Shown here: positions 1 to 9,300 of the stretch, in pieces
How the letters are laid out: every line of letters starts with the position of its first letter
Numbering within the stretch: position 1 is the stretch's first letter
Source of the DNA: Verrucomicrobiota bacterium
GTDB taxonomy: Bacteria > Verrucomicrobiota > Verrucomicrobiia > Opitutales > Oceanipulchritudinaceae
Length of the DNA stretch: 32,940 nucleotides
Assembly (NCBI GenBank): GCA_009908535.1
Contig: JAAAOD010000204.1
Location: forward strand, 1-32,940
Direction: 5' to 3'
Notes under the pieces: model-generated
The model's input: the letters and a program-made list of their open reading frames with translations, nothing else
Databases searched by the model: none
Told to the model about the DNA's origin: nothing
Program-made: the position numbers and the translations under genes

Positions 1-516
1 TCAATTGCCGATAATCACAACAATATCCGGCAACCAGTTTCGAGCACTAACCGAACGAAAGGTGCCTTTCCCTATTACGGTGCTAGCGGGATCGTTGATT
101 ACATAAGTGAATATATTTTTGATGAGCCTCGTCTACTCATTGGAGAGGATGGAGCGAAGTGGGGCGCTTTTGAAAAAACTGCATTTATAGCTCGCGGAAA
201 ATATTGGGTAAATAACCATGCACACGTATTTAGCTCCCGTGTGCTCGATATTCGCTTCCTTGAAAACTATCTAATGCTGCTGGATTTGGCTCCATTCGTA
301 ACAGGTTTTGCACCCCCTAAACTCACGCTCGATAATGCTAAGCGGATTCCTATTCCAGTGCCCTCGAATTCTGCCGAACAACAAAAAATCGCCGACTGCC
401 TCAGCGCCATCGACGCCCTCATCACCGCCCAGACCGAACAAATCGCCGCCCTCAAAGAACACAAAAAGGGCCTGATGCAGAAGTTGTTTCCGAATCCAGA
501 TTTGAATAAGGCATGA
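1..516 (+). CDS. hsdS: Type I restriction-modification specificity subunit HsdS, C-terminal part
   Basis: The frame is open from base 1, so the gene starts outside the window and only its last 171 codons are present. HsdS recognises the target DNA and assembles with HsdM (and HsdR) into the type I enzyme. The visible part holds a target-recognition domain with the family-typical string FPYYGASGIVDYI and a later LIGEDGAKWG segment. It is followed by the conserved C-terminal helix (SAEQQKIADCLSAIDALI, then LKEHKKGLMQKLF), which forms the coiled-coil spacer contacting HsdM. The ORF-track entry beginning at 241 is only the part after an internal GTG. The first ~350 bases are visibly AT-richer than what follows, as expected for exchangeable recognition domains. 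The stop overlaps the next start as ATGA, so the downstream ATPase is translationally coupled. Confidence 0.93.
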   Translation, partial: SIADNHNNIRQPVSSTNRTKGAFPYYGASGIVDYISEYIFDEPRLLIGEDGAKWGAFEKTAFIARGKYWVNNHAHVFSSRVLDIRFLENYLMLLDLAPFVTGFAPPKLTLDNAKRIPIPVPSNSAEQQKIADCLSAIDALITAQTEQIAALKEHKKGLMQKLFPNPDLNKA

Positions 517-1613
517 GCGACGCTTTTGAAAGTTTAGACGCAGTTGCCGCCCACGTTCGGGAGACGCTTGAGGAAAAGAAATGCATCCTTCTTTACGCGC
601 ACAACGGCACAGGCAAGACGAGGCTATCGACCACGTTCAAAGATATCGGCAAACATGGCGAAGAAAGAGATACCCTTTATTTTAACGCCTTCACCGAGGA
701 CCTTTTCTCCTGGGAGAACGACCTCGACAACGACAGCGAGCGTTACCTGAAACTTAACACCAACTCATCCTTCTTCGACGGCCTTGAGTCGATGGAAATG
801 GACAATCGCATTCGTGAGAAATTGTCGCCCTTCTGCGACTTCGATTTCCGCATCGATACCGACAACTGGGAAGTCCATTTCAGCCGAGAGGTCTTTGATG
901 GCGGAGAGCGGACACAACTGGAGGACATCAAGATTTCCCGGGGAGAGGAGAATTGCTTTATCTGGTGCTTCTTTCTCGCAATCGCTCAATTGGCCATCGA
1001 TGGAGCCGAGGCCTACGCTTGGGTGAAATACATCTATATCGACGATCCCATCTCATCGCTCGATGAGCAGAACGCGATCACGGTTTCGAGCAATCTGGCG
1101 AATCTGATTAAAGATACAGACAACGGCACCAAGTTCGTGGTCTCCACGCATCATAATCTGTTTTTCAATGTGCTGTTCAACGAGCTTGGGAGAGCCGTAA
1201 AAACCTGCCTCAGCTTGGATCGCAGCGACATGACCTACAGGTTAAGAAGAACAGGCGAGGACGCTGTTTTCGGGCACATTCACGAGCTGATTGAACTGAA
1301 AAACGCCGTCGATCGGGACGAACTCTGTGGCCATCACTTCAGCCGCCTTCGCTCCCTTCTGGAGCGAGCCGCGGTCTTCCATGGCCACACAAGATTTGAG
1401 GTTTGCTTGAAGCAACCCCAAGGCGAGCATGGCGAGGCTATCTACAGGCGACTGATCCAGATCCTCAGCCACGGGAACTATTCGCTCTACGCTCCCAGGC
1501 GATTGGAGCCGGAGAACAAACAGCACTTTTCGCGGATACTCTCCGACTTCATCGAATTCTACCCTTTCAACCGCGAAATCTTCGAATCTCCTGTACCGAC
1601 TTTCTCGGCCTAA
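513..1613 (+). CDS. PrrC/AAA_13-like ATPase, candidate anticodon nuclease
   Basis: This 366-residue protein has an ABC-type ATPase core: Walker A AHNGTGKT (29-36), a signature-like SRGEE (142-146), Walker B plus D-loop YIDDPISSLDE (175-185) and an H-loop STHHN (211-215). The C-terminal ~100 residues contain R-x3-E (R280, E284) in LRSLLERA and a histidine in ILSHGN (H320). PrrC anticodon nuclease uses an Arg-x3-Glu...His triad with similar spacing, is about 396 residues long, and is encoded within a type I restriction locus beside hsdS. In the PrrC model the ATPase is silenced by the restriction enzyme and released when a phage inhibits it, after which tRNA is cleaved. The gene overlaps hsdS by ATGA and the RhuM-family gene by TAATG. 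The ATPase call is secure; the tRNase role is inference. The alternative is a generic AAA_13 protein without nuclease activity. Confidence 0.85.
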   Translation: MSDAFESLDAVAAHVRETLEEKKCILLYAHNGTGKTRLSTTFKDIGKHGEERDTLYFNAFTEDLFSWENDLDNDSERYLKLNTNSSFFDGLESMEMDNRIREKLSPFCDFDFRIDTDNWEVHFSREVFDGGERTQLEDIKISRGEENCFIWCFFLAIAQLAIDGAEAYAWVKYIYIDDPISSLDEQNAITVSSNLANLIKDTDNGTKFVVSTHHNLFFNVLFNELGRAVKTCLSLDRSDMTYRLRRTGEDAVFGHIHELIELKNAVDRDELCGHHFSRLRSLLERAAVFHGHTRFEVCLKQPQGEHGEAIYRRLIQILSHGNYSLYAPRRLEPENKQHFSRILSDFIEFYPFNREIFESPVPTFSA

Positions 1614-2620
1614 TGCTTATCCTCTACACAACCGAAGACGGCAAAAGCCAGATCGAGCTTCGTGCTAAAGACGACACCGTCTGGCTGAGCCAGCGTGAGA
1701 TGGCGGAACTCTTCAATGTGAGCCAAGACAATGTGGGGCAGCATTTGAAGAACATTTACGCCGATGAAGAACTGAGCCGCGAGGCAACTACCGAGGAATC
1801 CTCGGTAGTTCAACGCGAAGGAAGCCGCGAGGTGCGCCGCCCCTTAACCCTCTACAATCTGGACGCCATCTTGGCGGTCGGCTATCGGGTGCGCTCGCCC
1901 CGAGGGGTGCAGTTCCGCCGCTGGGCCTCCACCGTCCTCAAGGAGTATTTGCTCAAGGGCTTCGCGATGGATGACCAGCGGTTGAAAAACCCGGACGGCC
2001 GCCCCGATCACTTCGACGAGATGCTGGAGCGCATCCGCGACATCCGGGCCTCGGAAAAGCGCTTCTACCAGAAAGTCCGCGATCTCTTCGCTCTCAGCAG
2101 TGACTACGACAAGACCGACACGGAAACTCAGCTGTTTTTCGCGACCGTGCAAAACATGCTCCTCTACGCCGTCACGCAGCAAACGGCAGCCGAGCTGATC
2201 ACCGACCGCGCCAACGCCGACGATCCCCACTTCGGGCTGCTCAGTTGGAAAGGCGACAAAGTCCGCAAGCGGGATATCCTTGTCGCCAAGAACTACCTGA
2301 CTGAGGACGAAATTGATACACTCAACCGCCTCGTGGTCATTTTCCTAGAAACTGCGGAACTCCGCGCCAAGAACCGCCAGGAAACCCGGATGCGTTTCTG
2401 GAAGGAAAACGTTGATCAGATCATCACCGGCAATGGCTTTCCACTGCTCACCGATTCCGGCTCGATTAGCCACAAGCAGATGGAGCGGGACACTTCCGAG
2501 CTTTATCTTGAATACGACCAGCAGCGTAAAGCGGTCGAGGCGCGTCGAGCCGATCTGGAGGATGAGACCGAACTCAAAGCACTCGAAGACCAAATCAAGA
2601 AGCGAAAGACAAGGAAATGA
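1613..2620 (+). CDS. RhuM family protein
   Basis: The 335-residue product matches the virulence RhuM family. It has an N-terminal winged-helix-like segment (VWLSQREMAELFNVSQDNVGQHLKNIY, about residues 22-48), followed by the characteristic SVVQREGSREVRRPLTLYNLDAILAVGYRVRSP block and QFRRWASTVLKEYL. The C-terminal half is rich in charged helices and ends in lysine and arginine. RhuM proteins have no established biochemical activity; they recur in restriction and other defence loci. The ORF track begins at 1403, but that extension runs inside the ATPase gene in another frame. The ATG at 1613 shares a base with the ATPase stop (TAATG) and begins a normal RhuM N-terminus. No Shine-Dalgarno is visible, so coupling to the upstream gene is likely. 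A 25-bp palindrome lies inside the coding sequence. Confidence 0.88.
   Translation: MLILYTTEDGKSQIELRAKDDTVWLSQREMAELFNVSQDNVGQHLKNIYADEELSREATTEESSVVQREGSREVRRPLTLYNLDAILAVGYRVRSPRGVQFRRWASTVLKEYLLKGFAMDDQRLKNPDGRPDHFDEMLERIRDIRASEKRFYQKVRDLFALSSDYDKTDTETQLFFATVQNMLLYAVTQQTAAELITDRANADDPHFGLLSWKGDKVRKRDILVAKNYLTEDEIDTLNRLVVIFLETAELRAKNRQETRMRFWKENVDQIITGNGFPLLTDSGSISHKQMERDTSELYLEYDQQRKAVEARRADLEDETELKALEDQIKKRKTRK
1786..1810. repeat. 25-bp palindrome inside the RhuM-family gene
   Basis: AACTACCGAGGA and TCCTCGGTAGTT are perfect 12-bp inverted arms separated by one base. They sit inside the codons for the family-conserved TTEESSVV stretch. The palindrome could be a dyad operator or, if transcribed, a site that impedes ribosomes; it may also be accidental. 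Confidence 0.6.
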
Positions 2621-2648
2621 CGACCGATCATCCAAATCATAGGTTTGG

Positions 2649-2674
2649 TGATCATGTTTTACATTTCATGATCA
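2649..2674. promoter_or_regulatory. Inverted repeat between the RhuM-family gene and the hsdM-like leader
   Basis: TGATCATG and CATGATCA are perfect 8-bp arms separated by the AT-rich spacer ttttacattt. Two related direct elements flank it: GATCATCCAAATCA at 2626-2639 and GATGATCCACAAATCA at 2697-2712. The cluster lies in the 139-bp gap before the mini-ORF, so an operator for the downstream genes is plausible. The arms are too short and lack a following T-run, which argues against an intrinsic terminator. Confidence 0.35.
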
Positions 2675-2759
2675 ACAAAGTGTTTTGTCGCTCGCAGATG
2701 ATCCACAAATCACAGCACGCGTTTCTCACCGCTCTTTTCCAAGCTCTCCCTTTCAGTCC

Positions 2760-2867
2760 ATGACCGAAAAAGACCAAGCCCAACTCGGCAAAACTCTCTG
2801 GAACATCGCCGACCAGCTGCGCGGAGCGATGAGCGCGGACGACTTCCGCAACGACAAAAGCGAATGA
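2760..2867 (+). pseudogene. Truncated duplicate of the hsdM 5' end (35-codon leader ORF)
   Basis: From its ATG this mini-ORF encodes the same first 30 residues as the intact HsdM at 3818 (MTEKDQAQLGKTLWNIADQL...). The two 90-bp copies differ at two positions only, both synonymous third bases (ACT/ACC and GGA/GGC). After DDFR the sequence diverges to NDKSE and stops. The stop overlaps the DUF3800 start as ATGA. The duplication begins exactly at the start codon, because the upstream sequences of the two copies do not match. It may be the remnant of a deleted hsdM copy, or a leader that now delivers ribosomes to the DUF3800 gene. The track's longer ORF from 2685 only adds codons before this ATG. 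Confidence 0.8.
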
Positions 2868-3673
2868 GACTCAACAAAACAGCGAGCTTTCGAGCTTACA
2901 TTGATGAATCCGGCGACGAAGGATTCCGGTTTCGTGCGGACGGATCGGGCAGTTCGCGCTGGTTCGTTATCTCCGCGCTGGTACTTCGCCTTAAGAACGA
3001 CGCCCAAGTCGTCGAGTGCCTGAAGGAAACGCGGAAGCTCCTAGCGAAACCATTTAAATACCCTCTGCACTTTGTCGATTTAAAGCATGAACAACGGGTG
3101 CCCTACGCAAGACGGGTTGGCAATTTGGCGGCGCGCACGGTCTCGGTCTTGATCTACAAACCCTCGATCCAGGAACCCGAGAAATTCCAGAATGAGAAAT
3201 ACCTCCTCTACCGCTATGCGACCCGTCTTCTGTTGGAGCGGGTGTCTTGGCTGTGTCGTGACCATCGGATCGACGGGGAAGGCGATGGGTCCTGCGATAT
3301 CATCTTTTCGAACCGCAGCAACATGTCCTACGAGCAGATACAATCCTACCTCCGGCATTTGATTGATCAGTCCGGCCCACTTCCTCAGGACGTCCAAATT
3401 GAGCCAACTGCCATCCGGCCGGAGCAAATCAAAGCCGTGGAGCACTCTAAGCTGGCTGGCCTGCAAGCCGCCGACGCAGTCGCCTCAAGCATGCATTTTG
3501 CCGTGAAGCGCAATCGCTATGGCGAGAGCGAGCCCGCCTACAGTCGGCTTTTGACCAAGACATTCTACCGCCACAAAGGTAGCCTCCAAGGATACGGTAT
3601 AAAACTGTGGCCGGACACCCTAGCAGAGTTGAAAACAAAAGCCCCCGAGGCGAAACACCTGGAGGGCTTATGA
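2864..3673 (+). CDS. DUF3800 domain-containing protein
   Basis: This 269-residue protein carries the DUF3800 hallmark near its N-terminus, AYIDESGDEGF (residues 11-21, with acidic D14, E15 and D18), followed by WFVISALVL. The C-terminal LAGLQAADAVASSMHFA contains the second conserved acidic position. The arrangement of acidic residues suggests an RNase H-like metal-dependent fold, but no activity is established for the family. Members are frequent in defence islands and mobile elements. The start codon overlaps the stop of the hsdM-derived mini-ORF (ATGA) and has no Shine-Dalgarno, so expression probably depends on translation of that leader. A 144-bp gap separates it from hsdM. Confidence 0.88.
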   Translation: MRLNKTASFRAYIDESGDEGFRFRADGSGSSRWFVISALVLRLKNDAQVVECLKETRKLLAKPFKYPLHFVDLKHEQRVPYARRVGNLAARTVSVLIYKPSIQEPEKFQNEKYLLYRYATRLLLERVSWLCRDHRIDGEGDGSCDIIFSNRSNMSYEQIQSYLRHLIDQSGPLPQDVQIEPTAIRPEQIKAVEHSKLAGLQAADAVASSMHFAVKRNRYGESEPAYSRLLTKTFYRHKGSLQGYGIKLWPDTLAELKTKAPEAKHLEGL

Positions 3674-3817
3674 AAAATTGCAGGTCCCAGAAACCGAGGA
3701 TCCCACCCAATCGGGCTGCCACTCACTACAGGCGGCCTCTACATCTTCTGCGCTTACCTCAAATGAATATCGCGTAGATTCAGTCTTCCGTCAAACCGAT
3801 TTTTCCCACATTTTCAA

Positions 3818-3907
3818 ATGACCGAAAAAGACCAAGCCCAACTCGGCAAAACCCTCTGGAACATCGCCGACCAGCTGCGCGGCGCGATGAGCGCGGACGA
3901 CTTCCGC
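3818..3907 (+). repeat. Second copy of the 90-bp hsdM 5' direct repeat
   Basis: The first 30 codons of intact hsdM are repeated at 2760-2849 with two synonymous mismatches. The copies lie 1,058 bp apart in direct orientation. Recombination between them would delete the DUF3800 gene and restore a plain hsdM start. Confidence 0.9.
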
Positions 3908-5449
3908 GACTACATGCTGTCGTTCCTCTTCCTGCGCTACCTTTCCGACAACTATGTCGAGGCCGCCCGCAAGGAACTCGGCGGGGATTATCCGGAGCCG
4001 GAGAAGGGCGATGACCGCGTGCCCCTCCAGATATGGTATGACAACAACGCCGATGACGTCGCCGAGTTCGAGAACCAGATGCGGCTCAAGGTGCACTACG
4101 TGATCGAGCCCGCCTTCCTCTGGAGCAATATCGCCGAAATGGCCCGCAAGCAGGACGGCGATCTCCTCAGCACGTTACAGCGGGGCTTCAACTACATCGA
4201 AAACCAGTCGTTCAAGAGCACCTTCAGCGGCCTGTTTTCCGAAATCAACCTCGGTTCGGAGAAGCTCGGTAAAACCTACGAAGCCCGCAACAAAAAGCTC
4301 ACCAAGATCATCGCCGAGATCGCGAAGGGCCTTGACGAGTTTGCGGCGGACAAAGACACGCTCGGCGATGCCTATGAATACCTGATCGGCCAATTTGCGG
4401 CTGGCTCCGGAAAGAAGGCGGGCGAGTTCTATACCCCGCAGCAGATTTCCAACATCCTCTCCTCCATTGTCACGCTCGACAGTCAGGATCCGAAGAGCGG
4501 CAAGCGCGACAAGCTCAGTCGGGTGCTCGACTTCGCGTGCGGTTCCGGCTCGCTGCTGCTCAACATCAAGCGTCAGATCGAAAAGGCCGGCGGCACTATC
4601 GGCAAAATCTACGGGCAGGAGAAGAACATCACCACCTACAACCTCGCCCGGATGAACATGCTGCTGCACGGGGTGAAAGATGCGGAGTTCGAGATCTACC
4701 ACGGCGACACTCTGGAGAATGAATGGGACGAGTTCCGCGAGGAAAACCCGGCCAAGAAACCCGCCTTTGACGCGGTCGTGGCCAATCCGCCCTTCAGCCT
4801 TCGCTGGACCCCCGGCGAGGAAACCACCAAGGATCGCCGATTCAAGAACCACGGCGTGGCCCCGAAGTCCGCCGCCGACTTCGCCTTTCTCCTCCACGGC
4901 TTCCAGTATCTCAAGGAAGACGGCGTCATGGCCATCATCCTGCCCCACGGCGTGCTCTTCCGCGGCGGGGTGGAAGCCAAAATCCGCAAGAAGCTCCTCG
5001 ACGACGGCCATATCGATACCGTCATCGGCCTCCCCGCCAATCTCTTCTACTCCACCGGCATCCCCGTCTGCATCCTCGTGCTCAAGAAGTGCAAAAAGCC
5101 CGACGATGTGCTCTTCATCAACGCCAGCGAGCACTACGAGAAAGGCAAGCGCCAGAACGTGCTGACCAACGACCACATCGAAAAGGTCGTCCAGACCTAC
5201 GTCGAGCGCCCGGACGAGGTCGAACGCTACGCCCGCCGCGTCGGCATGGATGAGATCGAGGAGAACGACTACAACCTCAACATCACCCGCTACGTCAGCA
5301 CCGCCGAACCCGAGCCCATCATCGACCTCGCCGAAACCCACAAATCCATCGTCGCCGCCGATAAGGACATCCGCGAGATGACAAAGAAGCACAATACGTT
5401 CCTCAAAGAGTTGGGTCTGCCCGCGTTGCCGGGAGAGGACAGGAAATGA
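3818..5449 (+). CDS. hsdM: Type I restriction-modification DNA methyltransferase subunit HsdM
   Basis: HsdM (543 residues) is the adenine-N6 methyltransferase subunit of a type I system and works with HsdS. The N-terminal helical domain (1-170) contains DYMLSFLFLRYLSDNY. The catalytic domain shows AGEFYTPQQI (201-210), the SAM-binding motif LDFACGSGSLLL (237-248) and the catalytic NPPF (323-326), typical of N6-adenine methylases. Length and motif order are normal, so the protein should be functional. No Shine-Dalgarno precedes the ATG. Unusually, hsdM lies downstream of hsdS, separated by three other genes, and no hsdS follows it. A small ORF overlaps its stop by ATGA, the junction at which hsdS commonly begins. 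hsdR is not in the window. Confidence 0.96.
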   Translation: MTEKDQAQLGKTLWNIADQLRGAMSADDFRDYMLSFLFLRYLSDNYVEAARKELGGDYPEPEKGDDRVPLQIWYDNNADDVAEFENQMRLKVHYVIEPAFLWSNIAEMARKQDGDLLSTLQRGFNYIENQSFKSTFSGLFSEINLGSEKLGKTYEARNKKLTKIIAEIAKGLDEFAADKDTLGDAYEYLIGQFAAGSGKKAGEFYTPQQISNILSSIVTLDSQDPKSGKRDKLSRVLDFACGSGSLLLNIKRQIEKAGGTIGKIYGQEKNITTYNLARMNMLLHGVKDAEFEIYHGDTLENEWDEFREENPAKKPAFDAVVANPPFSLRWTPGEETTKDRRFKNHGVAPKSAADFAFLLHGFQYLKEDGVMAIILPHGVLFRGGVEAKIRKKLLDDGHIDTVIGLPANLFYSTGIPVCILVLKKCKKPDDVLFINASEHYEKGKRQNVLTNDHIEKVVQTYVERPDEVERYARRVGMDEIEENDYNLNITRYVSTAEPEPIIDLAETHKSIVAADKDIREMTKKHNTFLKELGLPALPGEDRK

Positions 5450-6307: not shown

Positions 6308-9300
6308 ATGCCCAGGCGAATTCGGCGTGTAAGACGAGGAATCCTCATGGGGGCGGGCGGCCTGCTGGCGGCGGTGCTCCTTGTGGGCGCGACCTCGCCG
6401 CTGTGGGGGATTTCGCTGCTCAGGACGGTTGCGGACTGGGCCGGGTACGAGGTGGCCGTGGATGAGGTGGAGGCAAACGGCTTCAGCCGCTGGACCCTGC
6501 GGGAATTGACCGTCCGGGGCCCCGCCTTCAGCCTGACCGCGGATCGACTGGAGCTTCCCCAGTTCGGACCTTTAGCTTTGGCGTTGCTGGACGACGCGCG
6601 GCGGCCGTTTTTCGCGGCCGGAATGGTGGAGGTGGTTGTCGGCAGCGAGCCCGGTCGGGACCGGCCCGTCGAAGGGAGGGGAGCCGATTGGCGGCGAATC
6701 GGCCCGTTGGTTGAAGGAATGCTGCCGCGGTTGCCGGAAGGATCCGTCGAGGGCCTGCGGATCGTAAAGCCGGGAGAGGAAAAGCGCGGATGGCTGCTGG
6801 GGGCGGAGAACGTCCGGATCAAAGGCCGTTCGCTGCGTGCCCGCCTCTCGCCCGCGGCCAACGTGCCGGCCGCGGCGATGGAATTGCGGCTGCTTTCGGG
6901 GGAAAGGTGGCAGTTGACGCTGGACCCGGAAATCGCAGAGATGAGCGCCTTCGCGGAGATCCGCTTCAACGGGGAGGCGGCCGGCGTCCATGCGGAGGTA
7001 CGCTCCAGCGAAGTCCCGTTGTTCCTCTCGATCCTCTTTCCAAAGGAAGGCCAGTCTCTTTCCGGAAAGCTGGAAAGCACTTTGTGGCCGATCCCTGAGG
7101 TCCTCCTGCCTCCGCGACTGTCGGTGGTGGAAAAGCCGCGCCTGACCGCTGACGGGAGCTTTACCCTCGAAGGTTACGAACTGGACGCCACCGTGGAAGG
7201 CACGGGGGTGCGCGGGGCCGGCATGGGGGAAATCCCGGTTGTCACGAAAATCCAACTACAGGGCGACCGGGAACACCTCGCCCTGCGGCAGGTCGACATC
7301 CGGTGGGACTGGATCGAGGCGGGCCTTTCGGATCCCGTCACCTATCGTTTCGCGGAAGGTGTGCTGGAGGGAAAGGCCCTTTTCAATGTCAAGGCGGACC
7401 TTGCAAGACAGGAGTTTCTCGATGCGGAGGGCATGCTTCGCGGCCGGGCGCGCTTTGTCGGTGAGACATGGGAGTCTCCGCGGGTCGAGTTTGAAGTGAA
7501 CGGGGAAGGGGTGCGGTACGCGGACTTTCCCGCCTTCAATGCCCGCATGGAGGGGATCTACGAGCAGCCCTTCTTCGAGGTGAGGGAACTTCTGGTGGAA
7601 GGGGGGCCGCGGGAGGGCGAGGCCGTCTTTTCCCTGACCGGGCACGGGCAATGGAATTTCGCTACAAAAGGGTTTTCCGCCACCGTGGAGGGAACGGGCG
7701 ACGCGGAGCAGCTGGCGCCGCTTCCCGGGGGCGTCCGTTGGAGCGGCGACCTGCGCTTGCGGGCCTCGGCGGAGGGCCGTCCCGGGGACTGGACCCACCG
7801 GGGTTCCCTGCAGGCCGGGGTGGTGCGGATGGCGCCGCTTTCGCCTTTCCAGACCGATTTTCGCTGGAACGGAGCGGGGATGGAATCGGTCACGGGCACC
7901 CTGCAATTACAGAATACAGCCGTCGATACCTTGACTCTTGAGGCTGTCTTTCGGCGGCCGGATCCCTCTTCATGGGAGCTGGACCTGCGGGACCTCCGCC
8001 TGCGCACGGGGGATCGCCCCGCACTCGAGCTGGTGGAGCCGGTCTTGATCGGCGGGAGCTGGCCGATAGGCGGCCTGCCCGCAGTGGAAGAACTCGTTCT
8101 GGCGGCGGAGTCCACCCGCTTCTCCTTCGGCATAGCCCCCGCAGAAAAGCGGTTGCAGCTGGAGGTCGCCCGATTTTCCACCGACCGTCTCGCCTCCCTC
8201 TTCCCGGATATCGAGGTGCCCTCCCTTGTCCTCCGCCGATTGTCGGCCGACTTCCTGGAGGAAGCGGGCGGTCTCGTCGGCGGTGTCCATGTGGATATGA
8301 TGGAGAAAGGGCCGCCGCGTCCCTTCGGACTGCGCCTGTCCGCGGACGTTACCGGGGAGTCCATCCGCCTGCGTAACGTCGAAGGCGTGACGGGCGCGCG
8401 CGATGTCGTGAAAGGCCAACTACAGCTGCCGTTCCGGGTGGTCCGCGCGGAGAACGGAAAGGACGGCCCTTTCCGCCTGCGACCGACCGAAAGCGGTCTC
8501 GATGGTGAGCTGCGTCTTTTCCTTCCCGGTGAACTGGCCGAACGCTATCCGTCCTATCGATGGCTTGGCGCCGTGCGCGGACTCGAGGGCGGCCTTTCCC
8601 TCCTTGGAGGCTCCGCGGGGGGAACTGGACCTGCGACTTGACCGCAGCACCGGTTTCGGCGCCCTGCGCGGCTGGCTGGAGAAAGAGCCCCTGCGGGACC
8701 TTCGCCTGAAGGCCGCTGTCTCCGGCGAAGGGATCGTGGTCGACGAGGCCACCGGCCTCTGGGGAGGCGCGCGGCTGCGCCTCGAAGGCACCCTTCCCCT
8801 TGCCCCCGAGGAGATTTTCCGGAAGGGGAGGTCTTCCGGGTTGCGCGAACTGGCCGACAAGCTGGAGGCGCGGCTGGACGTACCGCGTATGGAAATGGCG
8901 GACCTCACCGAGGTCCTGCCCGCGCTCGTGCGCCCCGAAGGCACGGCCTCGGCAAATCTCACCTTGCGTAGTGGATTCCGGCTACAGGGGGAAATCCGTT
9001 TCCGTGACTGGGGCCTGCGCTCGACTCTGTTCACCCGGCCCGTGGAAAACCTGAATGTGCAGCTGGCCTTTGACGGGCGGCGTATCCGGATCCGCGACGC
9101 CTCCGGGCGGATGGGCCTCGGCGAACTTTCGCTTGGCGGATGGCTGCGCTGGAGCCCGCAGGGAGATCTCCGCTACCAACTGGACGTGAAGGGCGACCGT
9201 GCCCCCCTCGTCCGCACGCCGAATCTGCTTCTCCGCAGCGACCTCGATTTGACGCTGCGCGGTGGCCTGCGGGAGCCGCACCGGCTCAGCGGCCGGCTCG

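Follow-up and report, generated by a model that had tools for sequence, protein, structure and literature searches.

A truncated hsdM start in front of a DUF3800 gene, probably a recombination scar of accessory-gene insertion in a type I restriction operon

Why does a type I restriction operon carry the beginning of hsdM twice, and why does the first, truncated copy run into a DUF3800 gene? In the window, the whole 32,940-nucleotide stretch of a draft Verrucomicrobiota genome that was analysed, the genes follow the order hsdS, prrC-like, rhuM, a short leader ORF, DUF3800 and hsdM (Table 1). The window begins at a contig end, inside hsdS. The hsdM at the end of this series clears the TIGR00497 equivalog cut-off for type I restriction-modification hsdM. 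Its codons 1-30 are present at both 2760-2849 and 3818-3907. Both copies translate to MTEKDQAQLGKTLWNIADQLRGAMSADDFR and differ at codons 12 and 22, each time by a synonymous change. Based on self-comparison of the window, the direct repeat spans 97 nt (2760-2856 against 3818-3914) and is identical at 93 of the 97 positions (96%). A search of the 2.7-Mb draft genome returned two matches to the repeat, with E values of 2.7e-45 and 7.2e-40; this uniqueness excludes chance as its source.

Table 1. Features of the operon, with positions in the window
Feature	Position	Strand	Evidence or remark
hsdS 3' part (type I specificity subunit), truncated at the contig end	1..516	+	PF01420 E 3.9e-19
PrrC-like AAA ATPase / anticodon-nuclease-type gene, 4-nt overlap with hsdS	513..1613	+	PADLOC PrrC E 6.3e-126
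RhuM-family gene	1613..2620	+	PF13310 E 8.2e-109
Putative ancestral hsdM upstream region, inverted repeat TGATCATGTTTTACATTTCATGATCA at 2649-2674	2644..2759	.	Homologous to L004 6896-7000
Leader ORF, 35 codons and stop (hsdM codons 1-30 as a stub, then the tail NDKSE)	2760..2867	+	97-nt repeat; translation; like stubs in 6 other loci
DUF3800 gene, predicted RNase HII-like fold, start overlapping leader stop (ATGA)	2864..3673	+	PF12686 E 3.6e-14; AlphaFold2/Foldseek
DUF3800-VII RNA (RF02967), convergent with the DUF3800 gene	3674..3762	-	56.8 bits, gathering threshold 36.2
Sigma-70-like promoter match just upstream of the DUF3800-VII RNA	3766..3794	-	Consensus match only
Complete hsdM, first 97 nt repeated at 2760-2856	3818..5449	+	TIGR00497 395 bits, cut-off 243

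The upstream ORF translates as MTEKDQAQLGKTLWNIADQLRGAMSADDFRNDKSE followed by a stop. Its TGA (2865-2867) overlaps the ATG of DUF3800 (2864-2866) in the 4-nt motif ATGA at 2864-2867, the overlapping stop and start expected of a translationally coupled gene pair. The DUF3800 start is credible because a homologue with 75% identity begins at the same column. Similarity between the two hsdM copies ends at the start codon. The first-pass annotation had described the repeat and the overlap correctly: thirty hsdM codons present twice with identical protein and two synonymous changes, and an upstream copy that begins exactly at the ATG and ends after 35 codons on a stop overlapping the DUF3800 start. 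Recombination between the 97-nt copies could possibly lead to loss of DUF3800.

Then, which of the two hsdM starts is the original one? The nearest relative, L004, belongs to the Opitutales and has an 85% identical HsdM protein, a degree of identity that does not make it a strain-level empty site. L004 has a single hsdM start, and the DNA directly before it (6896-7000) is homologous to window positions 2644-2759, with 65 nt aligned at 83% identity (E 4e-13) and the homology taking in the inverted repeat around TGATCA. The DNA before the complete hsdM of the window, in contrast, gave no match to the hsdM upstream DNA of L004, and the two window copies have upstream regions that differ from each other. 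Since the upstream DNA of the stub matches L004 and that of the full gene does not, the stub is best read as the resident hsdM start, which places the DUF3800 unit between the stub and the complete hsdM. On this upstream homology, what remains of the operon's first hsdM is its 5' end, still at the ancestral place, and the rest of that copy is missing or displaced. The earlier idea of a scar left by a deleted hsdM is thereby largely borne out, with the addition that the stub is the original 5' end where it always stood. An operator-like inverted repeat lies before the original start, at 2649-2708 in the window and at 6898-6950 in L004, where it reads TGTGGATCA-14 nt-TGATCCACA with a further GATCCACAA half-site and is located between a Fic-like gene and hsdM. 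Inside rhuM of the window there is also a perfect palindrome, CTACCGAGGAATCCTCGGTAG (1785-1814, about codons 60-67), which is nearly unchanged at L004 5692-5721, where the surrounding rhuM sequence is gone. This palindrome is common to several rhuM genes and several rhuM stubs end near it; it may be a breakpoint or a mobile palindrome.

The insert between the two hsdM starts is a recognised unit of gene plus RNA, as its two parts indicate. The DUF3800 gene passes the curated PF12686 score (54.1 bits, cut-off 21). Its AlphaFold2 model is of moderate quality (pLDDT 69.8), and the best Foldseek matches are to RNase HII (E 1.1e-4); a search by sequence found no solved structure that matches. The prediction of an RNase HII-like fold, made with moderate confidence, agrees with the RNase H fold with rearranged catalysis predicted for DUF3800 in PMC10910872. 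Adjoining the gene is a match to RF02967 above its gathering threshold, on the minus strand at 3674-3762, between DUF3800 and hsdM, which the first-pass annotation had missed. The DUF3800-VII RNA was located after every DUF3800 homologue checked.

The arrangement is not confined to this locus. Of 81 hsdM loci, the window plus 80 related ones, seven carry a truncated hsdM start that precedes an accessory gene and lies 675-1410 nt upstream of the full hsdM. The gene behind the stub is RhuM in L049 and L083, a RhuM remnant with a DUF1016-like gene in L060, DUF1016-like in L076, MazF-like in L037, transposase-like in L073 and DUF3800 in the window; the names given without a Pfam run are our reading of the translations. 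The stubs of the six other loci and of a further locus, G008, retain 15-59 hsdM codons. When the 81 loci were searched with successive tiles of hsdM, extra copies of codons 1-40 were found in 6, and the 12 other tiles together gave 2 hits. The seventh stub, in L073, keeps only 15-17 codons; it was found with a shorter query and stands outside the tile count. Almost all of the extra hsdM copies are thus copies of the gene start. Remnants of rhuM are likewise 5'-only, and the two 3'-only cases sit at contig ends. In G008 a 59-codon hsdM stub is coupled to a rhuM stub, which is followed by a zeta-toxin-like gene; these coupled stubs indicate successive, layered scars. The stubs of the window, L037, L049 and L076 are nearest to the hsdM of their own locus, and those of L060, L073 and L083 are closer to hsdM of other lineages.

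In this wider form, with any accessory gene behind the hsdM stub, the arrangement was found in several phyla. Of the 13 strongest matches in a profile survey of 388 genomes of the phylum, three were short frames. A survey of the order of G452 detected hsdM remnants, some of which proved on inspection to be due to simple decay or to an internal deletion, and one of the order of G453 gave 17 strong matches with no short-frame remnant among them. In E. coli, considered as a population test, the hsdM family was present in 42 genomes and the locus inspected had no stub, and the 11 close hsdM loci on viral contigs contained none. Among plasmids, H41 looked like an unannotated stub and was rejected as a full hsdM. 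Is the arrangement, then, a DUF3800 module, as the first-pass annotation had supposed might emerge from a search for DUF3800 genes with an hsdM N-terminal fragment in front? None of the other DUF3800 homologues examined has such a fragment; those in G008, G399, Cupriavidus plasmids and viral contigs have different surroundings and no hsdM stub in front. A DUF3800 module is therefore not supported, and the arrangement can be called a module on the hsdM side in a looser sense. We had also considered a breakpoint hotspot at a hairpin, GCGGACGACTTCCGC, in hsdM codons 26-30, and rejected it since the stubs end at different points between codons 15 and 59. Other repeats were seen along the way. In L075 the 3' end of hsdR is duplicated (3570-3670 and 4595-4695, 101 nt at 97%) around an unannotated gene of 284 codons, a mirror case at the other end of the operon; repeats in L082 resemble integron sites, and many repeats of about 600 nt are internal to hsdS.

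We interpret the leader as a recombination scar of accessory-gene insertion whose stub has been kept as a start-codon relay, and give this reading as a whole a probability of about 0.68; its scar part is well supported. The starting operon would have been hsdS, prrC, rhuM and hsdM. A block consisting of DUF3800, the DUF3800-VII RNA and an hsdM start would then have been joined in after hsdM codon 30, the left junction formed by illegitimate recombination and the right junction by homology within hsdM. A deletion between two neighbouring operons would give the same look by another route. Either event would leave resident hsdM codons 1-30 and the old promoter region before DUF3800, with a complete hsdM behind the block. 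Stubs that pass in frame into the 3' end of an unrelated gene are a mark of illegitimate joining: the L073 stub leads into the C-terminus of an HsdS and then overlaps the next gene, and the G465 stub leads into what we read as a GroEL-like C-terminus. Together with the homology on the hsdM side, these joins are suggestive of homology-facilitated illegitimate recombination. No donor locus with DUF3800 directly before hsdM and no strain-level empty site was found, so the direction and order of the insertion are given here as we infer them.

Why would the stub persist? Probably because it carries a start codon that feeds the overlapping DUF3800 ATG: ribosomes starting on the stub would terminate and restart at that ATG, and the sequence of the peptide would be irrelevant. 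Seven independent stubs bear on this point, with L060 and L083 counted as one and G008 included. An exact ATGA overlap with the next start is present in five of them (the window, L049, L060/L083, L073 and G008); the overlap of L037 is looser, and in L076 the stub and the next start are 42 nt apart. For a random frame, with an expectation of at most one third, the chance of such an excess over seven events is 0.045. The excess and the retention of 5' parts only favour the relay, by which the stub start codon would pass translation into the newcomer gene. The captured translation signal proposed by the first-pass annotation is plausible, with indirect support from the same five of seven overlaps and from the keeping of 5' over 3' parts. 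A related explanation goes further and takes the leader as a selected regulatory element, whose HsdM N-terminal peptide or mRNA controls DUF3800 in step with hsdM. The exact ATGA overlap, the identical peptide in the window and the recurrence in other loci speak for it. A regulatory leader peptide should have a conserved sequence, however, and the stubs of L060 and L083 differ by 11 changes, 8 non-synonymous and 3 synonymous, a ratio that indicates a peptide that is not conserved. Stub peptides change freely and lack residues that are invariant in HsdM, so that on the sequences compared the peptide appears unconstrained. With stub length varying as it does, with different upstream regions before the two window copies and with no such leader at any other DUF3800 examined, a selected regulatory leader is very unlikely.

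The geometry of repeat, insert and repeat with hsdM left intact also suits insertion with long target duplication proper, in which a mobile DUF3800 and RNA unit entered hsdM at a staggered break and 97 nt were duplicated without any donor hsdM. Long variable duplications are described for restriction-modification genes, as cited in PMC3031569 and PMC3154945, and the stubs nearest their own hsdM (the window, L037, L049 and L076) also fit simple target duplication without a donor. Two RF02967 units elsewhere are flanked by repeats: that of L139, with other cargo, stands between copies of the glgB 3' end (164 nt, 98%), and that of L134 is flanked by a 101-nt repeat of 92%. Yet hsdM stubs accompany at least five unrelated cargos, so the duplication does not belong to the DUF3800 unit as such. 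Flanking repeats are missing from most RF02967 units, and the candidate in G103 (L138) was rejected since the 55-nt repeat beside its DUF3800 unit is dispersed through that genome, with 48 hits. The stubs of L060, L073 and L083 are nearer to the hsdM of other lineages than to their own. At glgB, the relatives share no left flank and none shows an empty site. For the unrelated cargos, the dispersed repeat and the RF02967 units without repeats, we rank this explanation second and consider it unlikely. Its broadest form would make DUF3800-VII RNA units autonomous mobile elements: each would enter at the end of a gene and copy about 100-160 nt of it, so that the target gene stays intact, with the window (97 nt, hsdM 5' end), L139 (164 nt, glgB 3' end) and L134 (101 nt) as one class; we regard this as highly doubtful. 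In L139 (G362:C32), two small DUF4258-like and DUF2283-like genes replace DUF3800 beside the RNA, and the unit of L134, on a viral contig at about 2725-4256, has a 35-nt repeat near its 101-nt direct repeat. The draft state of the genome (280 contigs, 5.88% contamination), the window start at a contig end and the repeated nature of hsdM starts raise an assembly artefact in which two loci were joined through an hsdM start. The stub, however, leads into DUF3800 by way of unique sequence and a coherent overlap, and independent assemblies have this architecture too, which leaves the artefact a slim chance at most.

With the recombination scar as the preferred reading, such scars can be read as a record of the way accessory defence genes come into type I restriction operons: the new gene is placed just ahead of hsdM and takes over the hsdM start. 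A 5' leftover with various newcomer genes in about one of twelve related operons is a mark of defence operons swapping parts. If the relay is true, short 5' gene stubs, usually dismissed as debris, would be functional joints by which a foreign gene is translated at once in a tightly overlapped operon. Stubs of this kind can be searched for in any operon with overlapping genes.

How does the locus compare with known systems? A recombination scar is of a known kind; a 5' stub that recurs as a coupled leader whatever the cargo is, as far as the literature consulted shows, new. Insertion with long target duplication, known for restriction-modification genes (Nobusato et al. 2000, as cited in PMC3031569 and PMC3154945), shares with the window, in those accounts, an insert placed in defence genes between long direct target repeats, here 97 nt at 96%, with an intact target copy left. 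The insert in those accounts is a restriction-modification gene complex, whereas that of the window is an accessory gene, DUF3800, with the RF02967 RNA inside a restriction-modification operon, and its repeat is a coding 5' end predicted to have turned into a coupled leader. Homology-facilitated illegitimate recombination with sequential displacement, as in type VI effector/immunity arrays (PMC5361080, PMC3240628), likewise joins one side by homology and the other illegitimately and leaves remnants of older genes beside newcomers; what those arrays retain is orphan immunity genes, and in the loci studied here it is the 5' ends of hsdM and rhuM. Known pairs of a DUF3800 gene and a DUF3800 RNA (Rfam RF02967; PMC10910872) have the same protein family and the same RNA family as the window, which differs in insertion context only. 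Finally, the prrC gene that lies within the type IC locus EcoprrI (review: PMC12707154) is also a toxin-like accessory gene inside a type I operon; the available text of that review describes no hsdM stub for EcoprrI, whereas the slot in the window lies just before hsdM and takes many types of gene across loci.
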